From the NCBI RefSeq assembly GCF_009905435.1, contig NZ_JAAAMT010000004.1, positions 62,001-126,000 on the forward strand: a stretch of DNA of 64,000 bases, in the 5' to 3' direction. Under the pieces are notes generated by a model. It searched no databases, had not been told where the DNA came from, and saw nothing but the letters and a program-made list of their open reading frames with translations. The position numbers were made by a program, and so were the translations under genes. Below are positions 16,552-23,380 of this stretch, piece by piece. This DNA comes from Pseudomonas sp. R5(2019) (lineage in GTDB: Bacteria > Pseudomonadota > Gammaproteobacteria > Pseudomonadales > Pseudomonadaceae). The first letter of the stretch is position 1. Each line of letters starts with the position of its first letter.

Positions 16552-17001
16552 ATGAATTGGGATCTGGCAACGCCATTTGTGATTGATCTACGCGTGGGCG
16601 CCGAGGACATCGACGGCCTCGGCCACGCCAACAACGCGGTTTACGTGACCTGGCTCGAGCGCTGTGCCTGGCGCCACTCCCAGCGCCTGGGCCTGGACTT
16701 GACCGAGTATCGAAGACTGGACCGCGCCATGGCGGTGGTCCGCCACGAAATCGACTACCTCGCCAGTGCCTATGAAGACGACGAGTTGCAACTGGCTACC
16801 TGGATCGTCGACTGGGACCAGCGCCTGAAAATGACCCGTCGCTTCCAGCTGATCCGCCCAAGCGACGGCACCACCCTGTTGCGCGCCCAGACCACCTTCG
16901 TCTGCATCGAGCTGTCCACCGGGCGACCGAAGCGGATGCCGGTGGAGTTTATGGAAGGGTATGGTCCGGCGATGATCAGCACTCAGCGGGTGAGTGCCTG
17001 A
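16552..17001 (+). CDS. HotDog-fold acyl-CoA thioesterase (4-hydroxybenzoyl-CoA thioesterase type)
   Basis: A 149-residue single-HotDog protein. The signature DIDGLGHANNAVYVTWLE (residues 19-36) matches the family motif in which the first Asp is catalytic and the GH-NN turn holds the thioester. It would hydrolyse an acyl-CoA in the cytosol, and homologous YbgC/FcbC types form tetramers. The ATG follows AGGAGCGGGC, an excellent site. The gene is in line with the alpha/beta hydrolase 49 bp upstream and may share its control, though a separate promoter in the gap is possible. Physiological substrate unknown. Confidence 0.9.
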   Translation: MNWDLATPFVIDLRVGAEDIDGLGHANNAVYVTWLERCAWRHSQRLGLDLTEYRRLDRAMAVVRHEIDYLASAYEDDELQLATWIVDWDQRLKMTRRFQLIRPSDGTTLLRAQTTFVCIELSTGRPKRMPVEFMEGYGPAMISTQRVSA

Positions 17002-17020
17002 TATTTGGCGTCTAACCCCA

Positions 17021-17040
17021 TTCGCGGGCAAGCCCGCGAA
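17021..17040. repeat. Single REP-type palindrome
   Basis: TTCGCGGGCAAGCCCGCGAA is a perfect 9-bp-arm palindrome with a CA centre, located just after the thioesterase gene. The same core occurs in the REP units at 8797 and 35776. Confidence 0.7.
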
Positions 17041-17196
17041 GCTTTTAGACCCACAATCACATCCGATTAACCCAGCAAGAATAATAAGTTGCAGCGGTTA
17101 CCCACATTTCCAGTGGGCCTGCCTGTGGATAACCTGTAGATCAACGGCGCTAGACATTGCCTTGGCTGGCGCTAATCACGTTTGAGCAAAAAATGC

Positions 17197-17904
17197 TCAA
17201 ACGGCCAGCGCCGCTTTGATAAACGCTTCATCCAGCGTCGCCGCCTTGTAGAACTCCTTGTACTCATCTCCTGAAGAGAATCCGAGAAACTGCCTTTGTG
17301 TGATCATGTAAAAGTCATCGCAATGCTGCGCAATTTCATCGATATGGTGAGAGGAAACCAGCACGGTCGCCCCCTCATCACTAGCTTGCCGAATGCACTG
17401 CCAGAGGTAGTACCGAAACTCTGGATCAACACCGGCTGTTGGTTCATCGAGAATGATCAGGTCCGAGGGCAAGCCCAGCAACGACAGCGTGAAGAAACAA
17501 CGAATCTCTCCGTAACTGCAGATCGCAGGCCTTTTGTCCCAAATCTCACCGTAACGCTTGGCGAGGTTCGGGCTCCAGCGCTCAAGACGCTGGAGCATAT
17601 AGGCCTTGCCTGGCAGCGTAGAGGCGCAAAGACATGACAGCATCCTGAACACTTCGGACATCTTCAGCGTCGCGGGCGTAGAAAGCGTTTGGGACAAGTA
17701 GAGCCGCTCGTTTGCGTTGATAGACAGCGTTCCGGTATCAGGTTTTCGCAGTCCGCAGAGGATATCGAAAAATGTCGTTTTTCCAGCACCGTTGGGACCG
17801 AGCAACCCAGTGACGGAGCCCTTTTCGATCACAAGTGATGCGCTCTTGAACAAGCATTTGTTCTTGTGCGAGAAGCTAATGTTGTCGGCAGTTAGAATAG
17901 CCAT
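17197..17904 (-). CDS. ABC transporter ATP-binding protein of the peptide island
   Basis: A 235-residue ABC ATPase. Walker A is GPNGAGKT, Walker B with the catalytic Glu is LIILDEPTAGVD and the H-loop is SSHHIDE. The signature LSGGQ is degenerate, reading CSYGEIR, as seen in some ABC-2 exporters with narrow tasks. It starts at 17904 directly after the permease stop with no spare base (TGA then ATG), so translation is coupled. It would power the permease encoded at 17905-18651. Base composition is clearly AT-richer than the flanking genes, which suggests horizontal gain. Role in export of, or immunity to, the neighbouring small peptide is inferred from the operon alone. Confidence 0.9.
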   Translation of the reverse strand: MAILTADNISFSHKNKCLFKSASLVIEKGSVTGLLGPNGAGKTTFFDILCGLRKPDTGTLSINANERLYLSQTLSTPATLKMSEVFRMLSCLCASTLPGKAYMLQRLERWSPNLAKRYGEIWDKRPAICSYGEIRCFFTLSLLGLPSDLIILDEPTAGVDPEFRYYLWQCIRQASDEGATVLVSSHHIDEIAQHCDDFYMITQRQFLGFSSGDEYKEFYKAATLDEAFIKAALAV

Positions 17905-18651
17905 TCAGTATCTGCTCCAGACAGGCTGCGTTCGGAAATACCGGAAAAAAATTGACAGTGCGATGGCTGGGAATACTGCTGCTGTCAGAAAAATCAAGTA
18001 GAGTTCAGTCTTTCCAGACATGACTGACTCAGCAAATGTCAGCGGATTGAGTGCACTCAGGTTTGCAAATGTTTTGAGGTGATGGGTGCTGCCCAGATAA
18101 CCCAATGCAACCATGGCGAACGATAAAATTGAAAGCAAGGTATGGGCAGTGTTGAACTTCAGGGGAGCAAGCGTTATCAGCAGACCCAGTGAAGAAAATA
18201 AGAGATAGCAAAAATAAAAGTGTTTGATGATCGTGAGATATTCTTTGGCGTCGTAGGTGCCGAAGGCTGGCTTCGTCAGCAGGTAAAAAATCGATCCATA
18301 GGCGAAAGCAATCAATGAGTAGCTGATGACGTGCGCGGCGACAAACAGCACGCGTGCCTGTCGGCCATAAATGAACGACCGGATAAACCCGCTTTCCCTG
18401 CGGCCGATCAGGTAAAACGTAAAGCCAAACAGGGAGATGCTTGAGGCTGTGTAGGCGTAGAACCACGAGGCGGCGTTCAGATATTCTTGGTTGAAATACC
18501 CTGCTTCTGCTTTTGAGAGCGCAAAGAAGTAAAATATAGCGCAAGGGGATAGTAGTATCCAGAACAGTGCCACGGGCTCTTTAATTTGCTCTGTTACGAA
18601 TACTGAAGAAAGTGATAATAATCGATTGGCGTAATTTTTTGTTTTTTTCAT
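17905..18651 (-). CDS. ABC-2 type membrane permease of the peptide island
   Basis: A 248-residue membrane protein with about six hydrophobic segments (for example VALFWILLSPCAIFYFF near residue 30 and LYLIFLTAAVFPAIALSIFF near the end), the layout of ABC-2 permeases. There is no peptidase C39 domain, so leader cleavage is not built into this transporter. Its ATG overlaps the stop of the upstream small-peptide gene as ATGA, and its stop abuts the ATPase start. The base composition is AT-rich, like the rest of the island. By family, such permeases export or expel small hydrophobic or peptide molecules. Nothing in the sequence names the cargo. Confidence 0.85.
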   Translation of the reverse strand: MKKTKNYANRLLSLSSVFVTEQIKEPVALFWILLSPCAIFYFFALSKAEAGYFNQEYLNAASWFYAYTASSISLFGFTFYLIGRRESGFIRSFIYGRQARVLFVAAHVISYSLIAFAYGSIFYLLTKPAFGTYDAKEYLTIIKHFYFCYLLFSSLGLLITLAPLKFNTAHTLLSILSFAMVALGYLGSTHHLKTFANLSALNPLTFAESVMSGKTELYLIFLTAAVFPAIALSIFFRYFRTQPVWSRY

Positions 18652-18839
18652 GGGAAGGGGGTCATGTTGTTTTTTTGTGTGCGATGGTGTTGTTTATGAA
18701 ACTGGATGAGTGTTTTTTTGAATCCGCCGCAACCACCAGCGCCACCCGATCCTCCGAAGAACTCCATATCTATCCACGATTCGGTTGTTTCATCTATGGG
18801 TAACAGCATTTCACCAAGCATGTGTTCATTGTTTTTCAT
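18648..18839 (-). CDS. Small Gly-rich single-Cys peptide, candidate exported or modified peptide precursor
   Basis: A 63-residue peptide that I do not recognise. Residues 5-26 are acidic (seven Asp/Glu, no Lys/Arg); residues 29-39 are a Gly-rich stretch with nine-tenths small residues and the only Cys at 37 (GGSGGAGGCGG); residues 40-63 are basic and His-rich. There is no Sec signal or membrane helix. Its stop overlaps the permease start (ATGA), which is strong evidence that it is a true, co-translated gene. I prefer the ATG at 18839 because the ATG at 18887 would lie at or before the likely transcription start; the longer form would have 79 residues. The acidic leader/basic tail layout resembles ribosomally made peptide precursors, but no modification enzyme is adjacent. 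Function is open. Confidence 0.65.
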   Translation of the reverse strand: MKNNEHMLGEMLLPIDETTESWIDMEFFGGSGGAGGCGGFKKTLIQFHKQHHRTQKNNMTPFP

Positions 18840-18889
18840 TTTGCTTATCTCTTGTTGTTGCGTTGCCTCCCGAATGAGGAAGTGCATAT

Positions 18890-18918
18890 TTATTAACGTT
18901 ATTTTTCTTTTGGGTCAA
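18890..18918 (-). promoter_or_regulatory. Candidate promoter of the small-peptide operon
   Basis: On the minus strand TTGACC (18918-18913), 17 nt, then TAATAA (18895-18890); a one-base shift gives AATAAA with an 18-nt spacer. The -35 is good and the -10 mediocre. It would start RNA near 18883, leaving about a 45-nt leader before the ATG at 18839. Confidence 0.4.
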
Positions 18919-19307
18919 AGGCTCTTTGGATGTCGGTGAATGTCGGTTTTGTTTGAATGTTATTTCTGTGTTTATTTTTTGTGGCTGTCTATAGGACGGT
19001 TCTGAATCTAATTTCTATATTTTTGTAAGATGTTTCCGTAGATTGATTTTTTATGCTTCTATTCGATTTGGGGGGGAGGTGCTTAGTGTTGTTCAAGCAA
19101 CGCCTGGCGTTATGTTTATTCCAGTAGCAGGGACACATGATTTGGAAGTCCCTAAAACCGACGAGCGGTAGCGGCTGAGAGTGTCTCTACTTGGAGCGGA
19201 TGCGCTTCGAGATTTTCAGAGTGTCGTATGCATGTAGCTCAAAGACCGGTGTAGGTATCACACGCTACCCTTGCTAGAATGCCGCCCTTTCCCCCGAGAC
19301 ATCCCCC
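18919..19307. other. AT-rich intergenic region before dusC
   Basis: About 390 bp with no convincing gene on either strand. It is T-rich on the plus strand, contains a short direct repeat of GATGTCGGT-like units (about 18930-18950) and a G8 run near 19070, and returns to normal composition by about 19140. A TAGAAT hexamer near 19275 may be the dusC -10. Confidence 0.5.
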
Positions 19308-20267
19308 ATGCAAATAGCCCTGGCCCCCATGGAAGGCCTGGTCGATGACATCCTGCGCGACGTGCTGACTCAGGTTGGCGGTATCGATTGGTGTGTGACC
19401 GAGTTCATCCGCATCAATGACCAGCTGCTGACGCCTGCGTATTTCCACAAGCTGGCACCTGAGTTGCAGCACGGTTCGCAGACGCGCGCGGGCGTGCCCT
19501 TGCGGGTGCAGTTGCTGGGCTCCGATCCGGTGTGCCTGGGGGAAAACGCGGCGCTGGCCTGCGAGTTGGGGGCGCCGGTGATCGACCTGAACTTCGGTTG
19601 CCCGGCCAAGACGGTGAACAAGTCCCGAGGCGGGGCGGTGCTGCTCAAGGAGCCGGAGCTGTTGCACACCATCGTCCAGACAGTGCGCCGGGCCGTGCCG
19701 GCGCATATTCCGGTCACGGCGAAGATGCGCCTGGGCTTCGACAGCCCTGACGGTGCGCTGGAGTGCGCCACGGCGCTGGCCGACGGCGGTGCGCAGCAGA
19801 TCGTCGTGCATGCCCGCACCAAAGTGGATGGCTACAAGCCGCCAGCGCATTGGGAGTGGGTGGCAAGGGTGCAGGAGGTGGTCAAGGTGCCGGTGTTCGC
19901 CAATGGCGAGGTCTGGACGCTTGAAGACTGGCGGCGTTGCCGTGAAGTCAGTGGTGTCGAGGACATCATGCTCGGTCGTGGCCTGGTGGCCCGCCCTGAC
20001 CTGGCCCGACAGATCGCCGACGCCCGCGCCGGTCGCGAAACGCAGCCCATGAGCTGGCAAGAACTGCAGCCACTGTTACAGGATTTCTGGGCGCAAGCGA
20101 AGGCCAGGCTCACGCCGCGCTCGGCCCCAGGCCGTCTGAAGCAATGGGTCGCGCTGTTGACCAAGTCCTATCCAGAGGCGGTGGAGCTGTTCGCAGTGCT
20201 GCGCCGTGAAGACGATTGCCAGCGCATCAGCGAGCTGCTTCGCATTCCCGTAAAGGCTGCCGCGTAG
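19308..20267 (+). CDS. dusC: tRNA-dihydrouridine(16) synthase
   Basis: A 319-residue Dus flavoprotein. The start [14 protein letters not shown] is the FMN-binding entry of the TIM barrel; the catalytic Cys98 is in [33 protein letters not shown] and ANGEVW are FMN-phosphate and tRNA-contact regions. Length and the [13 protein letters not shown] segment place it with DusC rather than DusA or DusB. It reduces uridine 16 in the D loop of tRNAs with NADPH. No strong Shine-Dalgarno precedes the ATG, but the start is fixed by the family N-terminus. It is transcribed toward the hsp20 gene 113 bp away, which has its own promoter. Confidence 0.93.
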
Positions 20268-20314: not shown

Positions 20315-20380
20315 AGGGAGTACGCGATGCCGAAGTCGGGTCGCGTTAAATCCAACTCGCTGATTTTCAGGAGATGTCAC
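20315..20380 (+). ncRNA. Candidate ROSE-like RNA thermometer in the hsp20 leader
   Basis: The leader carries TCGCT (20357-20361), which fits the UYGCU anti-Shine-Dalgarno motif of ROSE elements, and can fold on AGGAG (20369-20373) just before the ATG. This arrangement is known from ibpA/hspA leaders of proteobacteria, including Pseudomonas. Upstream helices were not folded here. Confidence 0.5.
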
Positions 20381-20827
20381 ATGACTACCGCATTTTCTCT
20401 GGCTCCACTGTTCCGCCATTCCGTTGGTTTCGACCGTTTCAATGATCTGTTCGAATCAGCGGCACGTAATGAGGCGGGTAGCAGCTACCCTCCCTACAAC
20501 GTTGAAAAACATGGCGATGACCACTATCGAGTCGTCGTTGCTGCCGCAGGTTTCCAGGAACAGGATCTGGATCTGCAGGTTGAAAAAGGCGTATTGACCG
20601 TCAGCGGCGGCAAACGCGAAGGCAGCGGCGAAAGCGTCACCTTCCTGCATCAGGGCATTGCCCAGCGTGCATTCAAGTTGTCGTTCCGGCTGGCCGACCA
20701 TATCGAGGTCAAGTCCGCAGCACTGGCCAACGGCCTGCTGAATATTGACTTGCTGCGGGTTGTGCCGGAAGAAGCCAAGGCAAAACGCATTCCGATCAAT
20801 GGTGTGCAGCCTGCTTTGCAAAATTGA
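20381..20827 (+). CDS. Hsp20 / IbpA-type small heat-shock protein
   Basis: A 148-residue small heat-shock protein with a short N-terminal arm (SLAPLFRHSVGFDRFNDLFE), an alpha-crystallin domain (about residues 36-128, ending in LANGLLNIDLLRVVPEE where family members have GLL-I-L) and a C-terminal tail with the IPI anchoring motif (KRIPIN). It is an ATP-independent holdase that forms large oligomers. The ATG at 20381 follows CAGGAGATGTCAC; the upstream ATG at 20327 would place coding sequence over the leader. A sigma-32 promoter and a possible RNA thermometer precede it and a strong terminator follows. Confidence 0.95.
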   Translation: MTTAFSLAPLFRHSVGFDRFNDLFESAARNEAGSSYPPYNVEKHGDDHYRVVVAAAGFQEQDLDLQVEKGVLTVSGGKREGSGESVTFLHQGIAQRAFKLSFRLADHIEVKSAALANGLLNIDLLRVVPEEAKAKRIPINGVQPALQN

Positions 20828-20873: not shown

Positions 20874-22706
20874 GTGCGCCCAGCATGGGCGCAATCTTGC
20901 GGGTGAAAGTCCCGTCGTAAGCTGACCACAGCGAACGAAGTGAAGCGCAACTGCATGAGGGTGACCGAGTGTGGGGAGGAAGCGTGGAGCGAAGCCGCGA
21001 GCCGATGTACAAGAATCGGATACAAGGCGGAGCCGACCAGGGCGAGCGGGCACGAAACCGCGAAGCTCTTGTGGTCAAAGGTCAGGCTACGTAAATCCGG
21101 CGGTTGTGCGGTGAAGGATTGCGTTCTTACCTGGGGAGATCTCGCCTTGTGCCTGAAAGGGCGACGGTGCAGGCCGGAGCGAGAAGTCAGCAGAGGCCGT
21201 AATAGTCTTCTTTTTTTGACGAAGGGCCGAACGAGAGAAAGCGTTGTAGGCCATGTTGATGCGAGAAACCGGAAGTCAGATGCCCGCCAAACGTGGGGCG
21301 GATGGAGACTGCGAACGGTGAAGCCGTGAGAAGCCCCATCAGCGACGAGGTCAATCGCCCGCAAAATGAAACCGAAAGCGCAGGGCAAGGGCTGCTGGAA
21401 CGGGCCTTTGCGAGAGAAAACCTGAAGCGGGCATGGAAGCGAATTAAAGCCAACAAAGGTGCGGCGGGGATCGACGGTCTGGACATCGATCAGACGGCCG
21501 ACCACCTGCTCACGGTATGGGCCACGATTCGCCAACAGCTCTTGTCAGGAATCTACCGACCCAGTCCGGTACGACGCGTGGTCATTCCCAAATCCGGCGG
21601 CGGTGAATGCGAGCTGGGTATCCCAACGGTCACGGACCGCTTGATCCAACAGGCGTTGCTGCAAGTCTTGCAGCCGCTGCTCGATCCGACCTTCAGTGAA
21701 CACAGTTACGGTTTTCGTCCGGGGCGCTGTGCGCAGGACGCCGTTTTGGCGGCTCAGCGCTACGTGTCTTCGGGTCGAAAAGTCGTGGTGGATGTCGATC
21801 TGGAGAAGTTTTTCGACCGGGTTGATCACGACATTTTGATTGATCGCTTACGCAAACGGATTACGGATTGGGCGGTTATCCGGCTGATCCGAGCTTATCT
21901 GGATGCTGGGACGCTGATCGATGGTGCGATCGAGAAAAGCCGCTGTGGGACGCCGCAAGGCAGCCCGCTGTCGCCGTTACTGGCGAATGTGCTGCTGGAC
22001 GAAGTGGATCGAGAGCTTGAACGAAGAGGTCACTGCTTTGTTCGCTATGCCGATGATGCGAACGTGTATGTGCGCAGCCAGAAGGCAGGGCAACGGGTGA
22101 TGGCTTTGCTGAGGCGGCTTTACGAAAAGCTGCACCTGAGCGTCAACGAGAGCAAAAGTGCGGTGGCCAGTGCGTTTGGCCGCAAGTTTCTGGGTTATGA
22201 GTTGTGGTCAGCCCGAGGCGAAGTTAAACGTGCTGCCTCCTATAAAGCGCAGAAGCAGTTCAAGCAGCGGATTCGGTGGTACACCCGACGCTCGTGTGGT
22301 CGTAGCTTGCAGCAGGTGGTTGATGAGTTACGGCCCTACATTCTGGGTTGGAAAGCCTACTTTGGATTGTCGCAAACCCCGAAAGTCTGGCGAGAGCTGG
22401 ACGAATGGATTCGACATCGACTGCGAGCGATCCAACTCAAGCAGTGGAAGCGTAGTTCGACGATCTATCGTGAGTTACGAGCGCTGGGTGCAAGTGAGCG
22501 AGTGGCGCAGAAGGTGGCGGGAAACGCCTGTCGCTGGTGGCGCAACAGTCGTCTGGAACTGAATCGCGTACTCAATATTGCGTGGTTCGACAGTCTGGGA
22601 TTACCGCGTTTCTCCTGACCTCAATCTCTCGAACCGCCCGGTGCGGACCCGCATGCCGGGTGGTGTGGCAGGGGTACGGCCTATGAAGGCCGTCCCCTAT
22701 GCCGAT
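20874..22706 (+). mobile_element. Class C group II intron (retroelement)
   Basis: The 5' end GTGCGCC begins right after the hsp20 terminator and is followed by about 430 bp of structured, mostly non-coding RNA sequence (domains I-III). The reverse-transcriptase gene sits in domain IV. A 34-nt domain V hairpin is at 22631-22664 (GAACCGCCCGG ... CCGGGTGGT), domain VI at about 22670-22699, and the 3' end is placed at GCCGAT (22706). Lack of an endonuclease domain and insertion behind a terminator agree with bacterial class C introns. The 5' and 3' boundaries are read from known end patterns and could shift by a few bases. It looks intact. Confidence 0.85.
21302..22618 (+). CDS. ltrA: Group II intron reverse transcriptase/maturase
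   Basis: A 438-residue intron-encoded protein. RT blocks are clear: AFARENLKRAWKRIKANKGAAGIDG (block 0/1 start), SYGFRPGRCAQDAV (block 2a/3), VVDVDLEKFFDRVDHD (block 3), CGTPQGSPLSPLLAN (block 4), VRYADDANVY with the catalytic YADD (block 5), FLGYEL (block 7), then the maturase X/GIIM domain ending RVLNIAWFDSLGLPRFS. There is no HNH endonuclease, as in class C introns. The ATG at 21302 is preferred; a GTG at 21293 is an alternative. It splices its intron RNA and copies it during retrohoming behind terminators. No stop or frameshift is visible, so it may be active. Confidence 0.93.
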   Translation: METANGEAVRSPISDEVNRPQNETESAGQGLLERAFARENLKRAWKRIKANKGAAGIDGLDIDQTADHLLTVWATIRQQLLSGIYRPSPVRRVVIPKSGGGECELGIPTVTDRLIQQALLQVLQPLLDPTFSEHSYGFRPGRCAQDAVLAAQRYVSSGRKVVVDVDLEKFFDRVDHDILIDRLRKRITDWAVIRLIRAYLDAGTLIDGAIEKSRCGTPQGSPLSPLLANVLLDEVDRELERRGHCFVRYADDANVYVRSQKAGQRVMALLRRLYEKLHLSVNESKSAVASAFGRKFLGYELWSARGEVKRAASYKAQKQFKQRIRWYTRRSCGRSLQQVVDELRPYILGWKAYFGLSQTPKVWRELDEWIRHRLRAIQLKQWKRSSTIYRELRALGASERVAQKVAGNACRWWRNSRLELNRVLNIAWFDSLGLPRFS

Positions 22707-23380
22707 TGAGGCCGGCTCTGTACGAAAAAATGTCGTAAATACCGCATGGAGCAGGCCAACGAGATAATCTCCGGAAAACTTTTCGCGAGCTTGTCGAATT
22801 GTGTCGCGATGCGACGGTTCTCTTTTAACCAGCCGAACATCCGCTCGATGATATTGCGCTGTCGGTATTTCGGCCGATCAAACAGCCTGGGTAAGCCAGG
22901 CTTGGGCTTGCGTTTCATGGCCCGTAGCGGGATGACAGGCTGCATTCGATAACGGTTGCAGTAGCGCCTCAAGGCTTCGGCGTCGTAGCCCTTATCGGCC
23001 AGTAACCGGTGGCAACGTTTACGAGGGTGACAGCGCAGGCTGGGAATGCTTACCTCATCCAGCAACGGTTGAGCGTAAGCGATATCGCTGGCTTGACCGC
23101 CAGACAGGATAAAGCGCAACGGCACGCCGTTGGCATCGCACAGCATGTGGATCTTGGTCGTCAGACCGCCACGGCTACGGCCTTGAACATCTGGTCGAAG
23201 GTTCCTCGATTTCGCCAATCTCGAAACCGCTGATAGACCGTCGACCAAGGGCCAAAGCGTTCTGGTCAGTCGCCAGCAGCGGAGGTTTTCATTCCTCGCT
23301 GTTGCTGACGGATGACGGCCACCTCGTAATCGGCTCGCATCGCAACGCCGTGCATTTTTATCAATGGATCCCAGCGGCAA
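22697..23380 (-). pseudogene. IS5-family transposase remnant
   Basis: The open frame reads as the C-terminal part of an IS5-family (IS427-like) DDE transposase: GGLTTKIHMLCDANG, LADKGYDAEALRRYC with the second Asp, and ERMFGWLKENRRIATQFDKLA with the catalytic Glu. The part before it, read in the next frame, is the normal GPWSTVYQRFRDWR helix region of the same protein, and the segment with the first catalytic Asp is absent. So an internal deletion joined two frames. The element spans roughly 22707-23345. Its stop codon lies inside the 3' end of the group II intron, so the left IS end is gone or abuts the intron. Not functional. Confidence 0.8.

Follow-up and report, generated by a model that had tools for sequence, protein, structure and literature searches.

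A putative immunity-only remnant of a microcin B17-like gene cluster in Pseudomonas sp. R5(2019)

Introduction

Microcin B17-like clusters of Pseudomonas were reportedly described by Metelev et al. in 2013 as containing McbA to McbF and lacking McbG. The E. coli cluster mcbABCDEFG is complete, includes McbG, and is borne by the plasmid pMccB17, and PMC10912980 presents McbEF as the export and self-immunity transporter for the modified McbA peptide. Pseudomonas clusters of this type in the strains of PMC8719888 itself are likewise without McbG. Two E. coli isolates that carry mcbG and an mcbF orthologue without biosynthesis genes are, according to PMC10926693, resistant to MccB17; their immunity genes lie beside transposase sequences, and the authors infer transfer.

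We analyzed a 64,000-nucleotide stretch of DNA from Pseudomonas sp. R5(2019), referred to as the window, in which a peptide of 63 amino acids precedes an ABC-2 type permease and an ATPase. As in the Pseudomonas clusters that PMC8719888 describes, the window has McbE, McbF, their gene order, and an ATGA overlap, together with an McbA leader and core start and an McbD tail, but the rest of mcbA, mcbB, mcbC, and most of mcbD appear to have been deleted, so that no product would be possible. Compared with the E. coli cluster of PMC10912980, the window lacks B to D, most of A, and G, and its mcb genes have chromosomal-type neighbors on a contig of 192 kb. The two E. coli isolates of PMC10926693 resemble the window in having immunity without production, whereas a deletion in place would account for the window. 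Bacteriocin exporters of the C39-peptidase type differ in that the transporter carries a C39 peptidase domain, which that of the window does not. We consider it very likely that the locus descends from an mcbABCDEF cluster of the microcin B17-like, linear azole-containing peptide type, of which it is an immunity-only remnant.

Results

Layout of the operon

Three frames make up the operon, all on the minus strand. The 63-codon open reading frame (18648 to 18839), with the central motif GGSGGAGGCGG and one Cys residue, is joined by an ATGA overlap to the gene for the 248-amino acid permease, mcbE (17905 to 18651), the stop codon of which is followed directly by the ATG of mcbF (17197 to 17904), encoding the ATPase of 235 amino acids. 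The start codon of the small frame is the likely one, judging from the McbA proteins of Pseudomonas sp. SDI and Pseudomonas donghuensis HYS, which start at the same place. GC content is 51% at 17001 to 18000 and 44% at 18001 to 19000, versus about 60% around, and the frames, their overlap, and the AT-rich island were thus as originally predicted. Promoter and terminator scans remained at chance level. On the plus strand, the operon is flanked by a 4HBT thioesterase gene (16552 to 17001) and a dihydrouridine synthase (dus) gene (19308 to 20267), the same neighbors as in P. donghuensis.

Farther along the window, a ROSE_3 RNA thermometer (20321 to 20386, 68.6 bits) is located at an Hsp20 gene listed as 20327 to 20827, the true start of which is probably farther in, given that the RNA covers the listed start. 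The region from 20955 to 23380 contains a group II intron RNA (Rfam group-II-D1D4, 20955 to 21227), the reverse transcriptase/maturase of a group II intron (21293 to 22618), and, after the maturase, a DDE transposase frame on the minus strand (22697 to 23380).

Identity of the transporter

The ATPase matched the Pfam family ABC_tran (E = 8.6e-15), and the permease had no significant match in Pfam or NCBIfam, with a CcmD-type match below the cut-off (E = 0.064). For comparison with E. coli McbE and McbF, we used the operon on plasmid NZ_CP076277.1 rather than that on pMccB17. An alignment of 29 permease homologues, including that of the window, matched E. coli McbE in hhalign with a probability of 99.8% (E = 1.6e-30), and the ATPase was 32% identical to E. 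coli McbF (blastp, E = 8e-42). A tblastn search of plasmids with the permease yielded 136 records (best, E = 3e-20); among the 20 plasmid matches listed, 11 were annotated as McbE, at 27% identity. The permease had no match in phages, and a single-protein search of the contig collection confirmed no relative, probably because of sequence divergence, the identity between McbE of the window and the relatives found being about 50% or lower. On the basis of this homology, the permease and ATPase are identified as McbEF, the export and self-immunity transporter of microcin B17. The suggestion of a bacteriocin-like locus with a self-protection type of transporter was therefore upheld by the McbEF identity, but the statement that no known family has this layout was not, since the transporter is of the microcin B17-like kind.

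The peptide as a fusion of McbA and McbD

The McbA-derived part of the 63-amino acid peptide (18723 to 18839) comprises a leader (residues 1 to 28) and the 11 starting core residues GGSGGAGGCGG. McbA of P. donghuensis HYS reads ...NMEFFGGSGGAGGCGGSGGCGGGGGC... and that of Pseudomonas sp. SDI reads MNSENSVLGETLLALDHSIQHQIDMEFFGRSGGAGGCGG..., with the NH2-terminal part of the window peptide reading MKNNEHMLGEMLLPIDETTESWIDMEFFGGSGGAGGCGG. Intact McbA proteins of relatives have the leader and the motif MEFFG[GR]SGGAGGCGG in common with the window peptide. A profile of 48 other McbA sequences matched residues 5 to 39 with 33.3 bits, compared with a best of 9.1 bits among 1023 six-frame stretches and 2000 shuffles, the same window frame read from stop to stop being excluded from these controls. 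The leader is identical to that of McbA of Pseudomonas sp. SDI at 13 of 28 positions, a value equaled by none of 5000 shuffles. At the DNA level, blastn aligned the window with mcbA of Pseudomonas sp. SDI (80% over 50 nucleotides, E = 1e-6) and of P. donghuensis (78% over 45 nucleotides, E = 6e-4), and both matches end at 18723 to 18724.

The McbD-derived tail (18648 to 18701) begins with F47, from which the end of the frame has the McbD-like spacing F, 11 residues, MTPFP, and a stop codon overlapping the ATG of mcbE. McbD ends in M[VT]PFP just before mcbE in all 48 readable tails of complete clusters, and, of the six mcbD-mcbE junctions displayed, three (P. donghuensis, Pseudomonas sp. SDI, and locus L042) have the ATGA overlap seen in the window. 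With a profile of the 48 McbD tails, the last 20 residues of the window peptide scored 24.0 bits. None of 100000 shuffles reached this value, the highest having 13.5 bits, and among 1387 stop-anchored six-frame tails in the window the runner-up scored -6.5 bits. True McbD tails score at least 26.2 bits (median, 52.9), so that the window tail is slightly under the weakest of them. The signal became weaker but was still present after removal of the final five residues, with 68 of 20000 shuffles being as good. Residues 40 to 46 (FKKTLIQ, 18702 to 18722) form a junction with a clear match to neither parent. The idea that these residues derive from McbD by a shift of frame, in which they would read KKHSSSF, was rejected as too weak, because equally high scores came from 167 of the window's 102581 stretches of ten residues.

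The ancestry of both ends thus marks the 63-amino acid frame, as judged from these sequence comparisons, as an in-frame mcbA::mcbD deletion scar. The frame was correctly predicted to be a member of the operon, the reason being that it fuses the two ends of deleted upstream genes; the original prediction of a separate system of a Gly-rich, one-Cys peptide and its own exporter gave way to this scar. The proposed profile search likewise yielded the start of McbA and the end of McbD instead of an intact novel precursor. Pfam and NCBIfam contained no family for the peptide, and tblastn of the peptide against plasmids gave no match at E = 0.1.

Biosynthesis genes in the genome

McbB, McbC, and McbD are absent beside mcbEF of the window. 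With McbB, McbC, and McbD of P. donghuensis as queries, the genome (97% complete) gave best matches of E = 0.09, none, and E = 0.5, respectively; each query found itself in the P. donghuensis genome as a positive control. Of the two YcaO proteins encoded by the genome, one is an OsmC-YcaO protein and the other has a further ABC exporter beside it. Neither is close to McbD: blastp comparison with McbD gave no match for one of them and a match of E = 0.04 for the other. The YcaO protein of 410 amino acids lacking a blastp match is followed directly by an ABC exporter of 567 amino acids near a contig end (locus L180, 671 to 3612, on contig C41), and this pair is possibly a separate RiPP cluster. 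Given that matches to McbB, McbC, and McbD are at chance level, the chimera has no maturation system found in this genome. The absence of a C39 peptidase and a modifying enzyme from the surroundings of the locus was correctly noted earlier, with no C39 or other peptidase domain found by Pfam in the peptide, permease, or ATPase at E values up to 1; as for the modifying enzymes, McbB, McbC, and McbD were not found elsewhere in the genome either. McbG had no match at E = 1e-3 in any of the 57 loci of the genus survey described below, comprising the window locus and 56 relatives, so that protection would rest on export alone.

These results bear on whether the locus might be a functional novel peptide system, in which a dedicated ABC-2 transporter exports a Gly-rich bacteriocin or signal of 63 amino acids. 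The frame is intact, has a start codon preceded by a Shine-Dalgarno-like AGAG, and is ATGA-coupled to an exporter, and E. coli McbEF is described in PMC10912980 as exporting modified McbA. However, the COOH-terminal part of the peptide is the tail of McbD, and what remains of the core is limited to its first 11 residues, among them a single Ser and a single Cys, the full heterocyclizable core being absent. Furthermore, no McbB, McbC, or McbD is encoded elsewhere in the genome. A search for the triplet of peptide, permease, and ATPase also spoke against a conserved gene: among non-complete loci, McbA-like sequence in frames of at least 20 codons ending near mcbE was found only in the window and in locus L081, the junctions of which differ. 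We regard such a system as highly improbable.

Chromosomal site

P. donghuensis HYS carries a complete mcbABCDEF cluster (locus L035; L110 is on the same contig) at the site of the window. The same two neighboring genes enclose it, and the identity of its flanks to those of the window is 78% and 80%. McbB of this cluster matches TIGR04424, and its McbC and McbD give weaker matches, below the cut-off, to SagB and SagD. The window lacks about 3 kb of the mcb cluster present in P. donghuensis. The comparison covered 30 of 48 matching dus loci. In 27 of these, mcbE is absent and the thioesterase gene is situated 50 to 844 nucleotides from dus; another lies at the end of its contig, and mcb genes are present in the remaining two, those of the window and P. 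donghuensis. A DNA search covering 95 relatives recovered the window itself and, in nine others, only fragments no longer than 286 nucleotides. The simplest history for these sequences would be insertion of a complete cluster followed by deletion of about 3 kb. P. donghuensis serves as the same-site comparison for the putative ancestral cluster, the closest McbE found being only about 50% identical.

Pseudomonas sp. SDI carries, in the same chromosomal block and one gene farther on, a decaying mcb cluster (locus L117, 6282 to 8998), in which the McbA core is shortened, mcbB ends early at 125 codons, and McbC and McbD are apparently one long frame.

Distribution of mcbEF and loss of production genes

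A survey of 398 genomes from the genus detected the permease in 57, that of the window included, and an alignment-based search of the contig collection provided a further 79 named loci (best 80 of 84). These searches gave at least 136 mcbEF loci, corresponding to at least 105 that are distinct by permease DNA. The 105 distinct loci, 79 of whose 136 sources come from the best 80 of 84, comprised 49 complete loci, 42 without mcbBCD, 10 partial, and four cut upstream, one of these four being the short window locus itself, the upstream side of which is known from the window. The genus survey alone (n = 57) gave 24 complete, 27 without mcbBCD, four partial, and two cut. Loci were designated complete if tblastn coverage of P. 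donghuensis McbB, McbC, and McbD was at least 90%, irrespective of frameshifts in individual loci. McbA was identified in 46 of the 49 complete loci. One of the 49 has no readable McbD tail, and L071 has a shortened McbE. Locus L046 has an apparently intact McbA-like precursor about 530 nucleotides upstream of mcbE and is missing mcbBCD, so that the precursor is left with no synthetase. Both P. jessenii DSM 17150 (L116, L129) and Pseudomonas sp. CC120222-01a (L146, L159) have one complete and one immunity-only mcb locus in a single genome.

Comparison of L043 with L111 (P. bubulae) revealed a deletion in place, with flanks 98.8% and 99.0% identical; L043 is without mcbA to mcbD except for about the last 20 nucleotides of mcbD. 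Flanks were also collinear around the missing genes in the pairs L050/L051, L107/L037, L064/L065, L144/L055, L159/L151, and L116/L103. Locus L081 has another in-frame mcbA::mcbD fusion, with a different junction and a short, weak McbD tail (2.0 bits), and L079 has an mcbC::mcbD scar and an interrupted mcbE. An McbD tail scoring above 0 bits precedes mcbE in 11 of 42 immunity-only loci and all 10 partial loci, compared with none of 3156 control placements. Fifteen of the 42 immunity-only loci exceed the best control (-6.6 bits), and the remaining 27 do not, so that a scar is visible in only some of these loci.

A tree of 102 of the 105 loci (L079, L087, and L172 being left out as shortened) showed scattered loss of mcbBCD, with 26 parsimony changes, or 31 losses with midpoint rooting and loss taken to be irreversible; the tree came from a quick search in which long branches were flagged as unsure, and the number of losses is thus approximate. 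Shuffled labels required 30.1 changes on average, and 74 of 1000 shuffles were as low as 26. Pseudomonas microcin B17-like clusters appear to have lost their production genes repeatedly, and in place in the seven pairs examined.

Selection on mcbEF

The median dN/dS for mcbEF of immunity-only loci was 0.124 (range, 0.076 to 0.193) in 41 pairs, the window not among them, and that for complete-cluster pairs was 0.161 (range, 0.107 to 0.282; 14 pairs), these pairs not being independent in that they share branches and many come from one clade (L033 to L038, L100 to L116). Given that change between separately lost pairs partly predates the loss, we considered separately the 14 pairs inside one inferred loss clade; dN/dS was 0.099 to 0.193 in the 10 of these with dS between 0.02 and 1.5. 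The mcbEF genes of the immunity-only relatives are thus under purifying selection. Full-length McbE and McbF are encoded by 39 of the 42 immunity-only loci.

Complete decay, with the whole locus including McbEF being a pseudo-operon without function, is very unlikely in our view. Such decay would match the shortening of mcbE or mcbF in the other three of the 42 immunity-only loci and the decaying mcbB of Pseudomonas sp. SDI in the same chromosomal neighborhood, but where conservation reaches at least 95% across the 49 complete loci, McbE of the window keeps all 32 columns and McbF 49 of 51, and the low dN/dS values of the relatives also argue against it. Retention of the same columns bears as well on a takeover of McbEF for another substrate, such as other gyrase poisons or unrelated toxic peptides, with loss of mcbBCD being neutral. 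McbEFG protects against fluoroquinolones, and the window copy has a long branch (0.54 changes per column), both of which would suit a takeover; with the conserved columns of complete clusters kept and nothing here pointing to another substrate, we judge it very improbable.

Discussion

The immunity-only remnant that we favor would have arisen by a deletion of about 3 kb, sized by comparison with P. donghuensis, that began at codon 39 of mcbA and stopped roughly 20 codons short of the end of mcbD. It would have removed the remainder of McbA together with McbB, McbC, and almost the whole of McbD. Such a deletion would have left an in-frame mcbA::mcbD frame that still ends in the old ATGA overlap of mcbD and mcbE, with McbE and McbF staying intact with their conserved residues. 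McbEF may then pump azole-peptide gyrase poisons of neighboring pseudomonads out of the cytoplasm. The chimera itself is probably inert; at most, its translation would deliver ribosomes to the start of mcbE and so couple the two frames. It is unlikely that the chimera has been retained for a function, either as a translational coupler for mcbEF or as an unmodified Gly-rich peptide exported by McbEF; if it has, deletion of the production genes would have created a new small gene.

Maintenance of the transporter after production was lost fits protection against the peptides of neighbors, for which the resistant E. coli isolates of PMC10926693 provide a precedent. Homology, the purifying selection on mcbEF of relatives, and the published function of McbEF together suggest that the window strain is most likely an immune non-producer. 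In the literature searched, which included few subscription papers and so provides no proof that the pattern is unpublished, we did not see repeated loss of production with retained immunity described for Pseudomonas.

A would-be new peptide family is removed by this analysis, being explained as a deletion scar, and what makes the locus interesting is not a new peptide system but the recurrence of the pattern in the genus. Repeated loss of production together with a retained immunity transporter is what would be expected if immune non-producers live in populations exposed to the toxin. This ecological question is open to testing with closely matched pairs, L043/L111 being one example.
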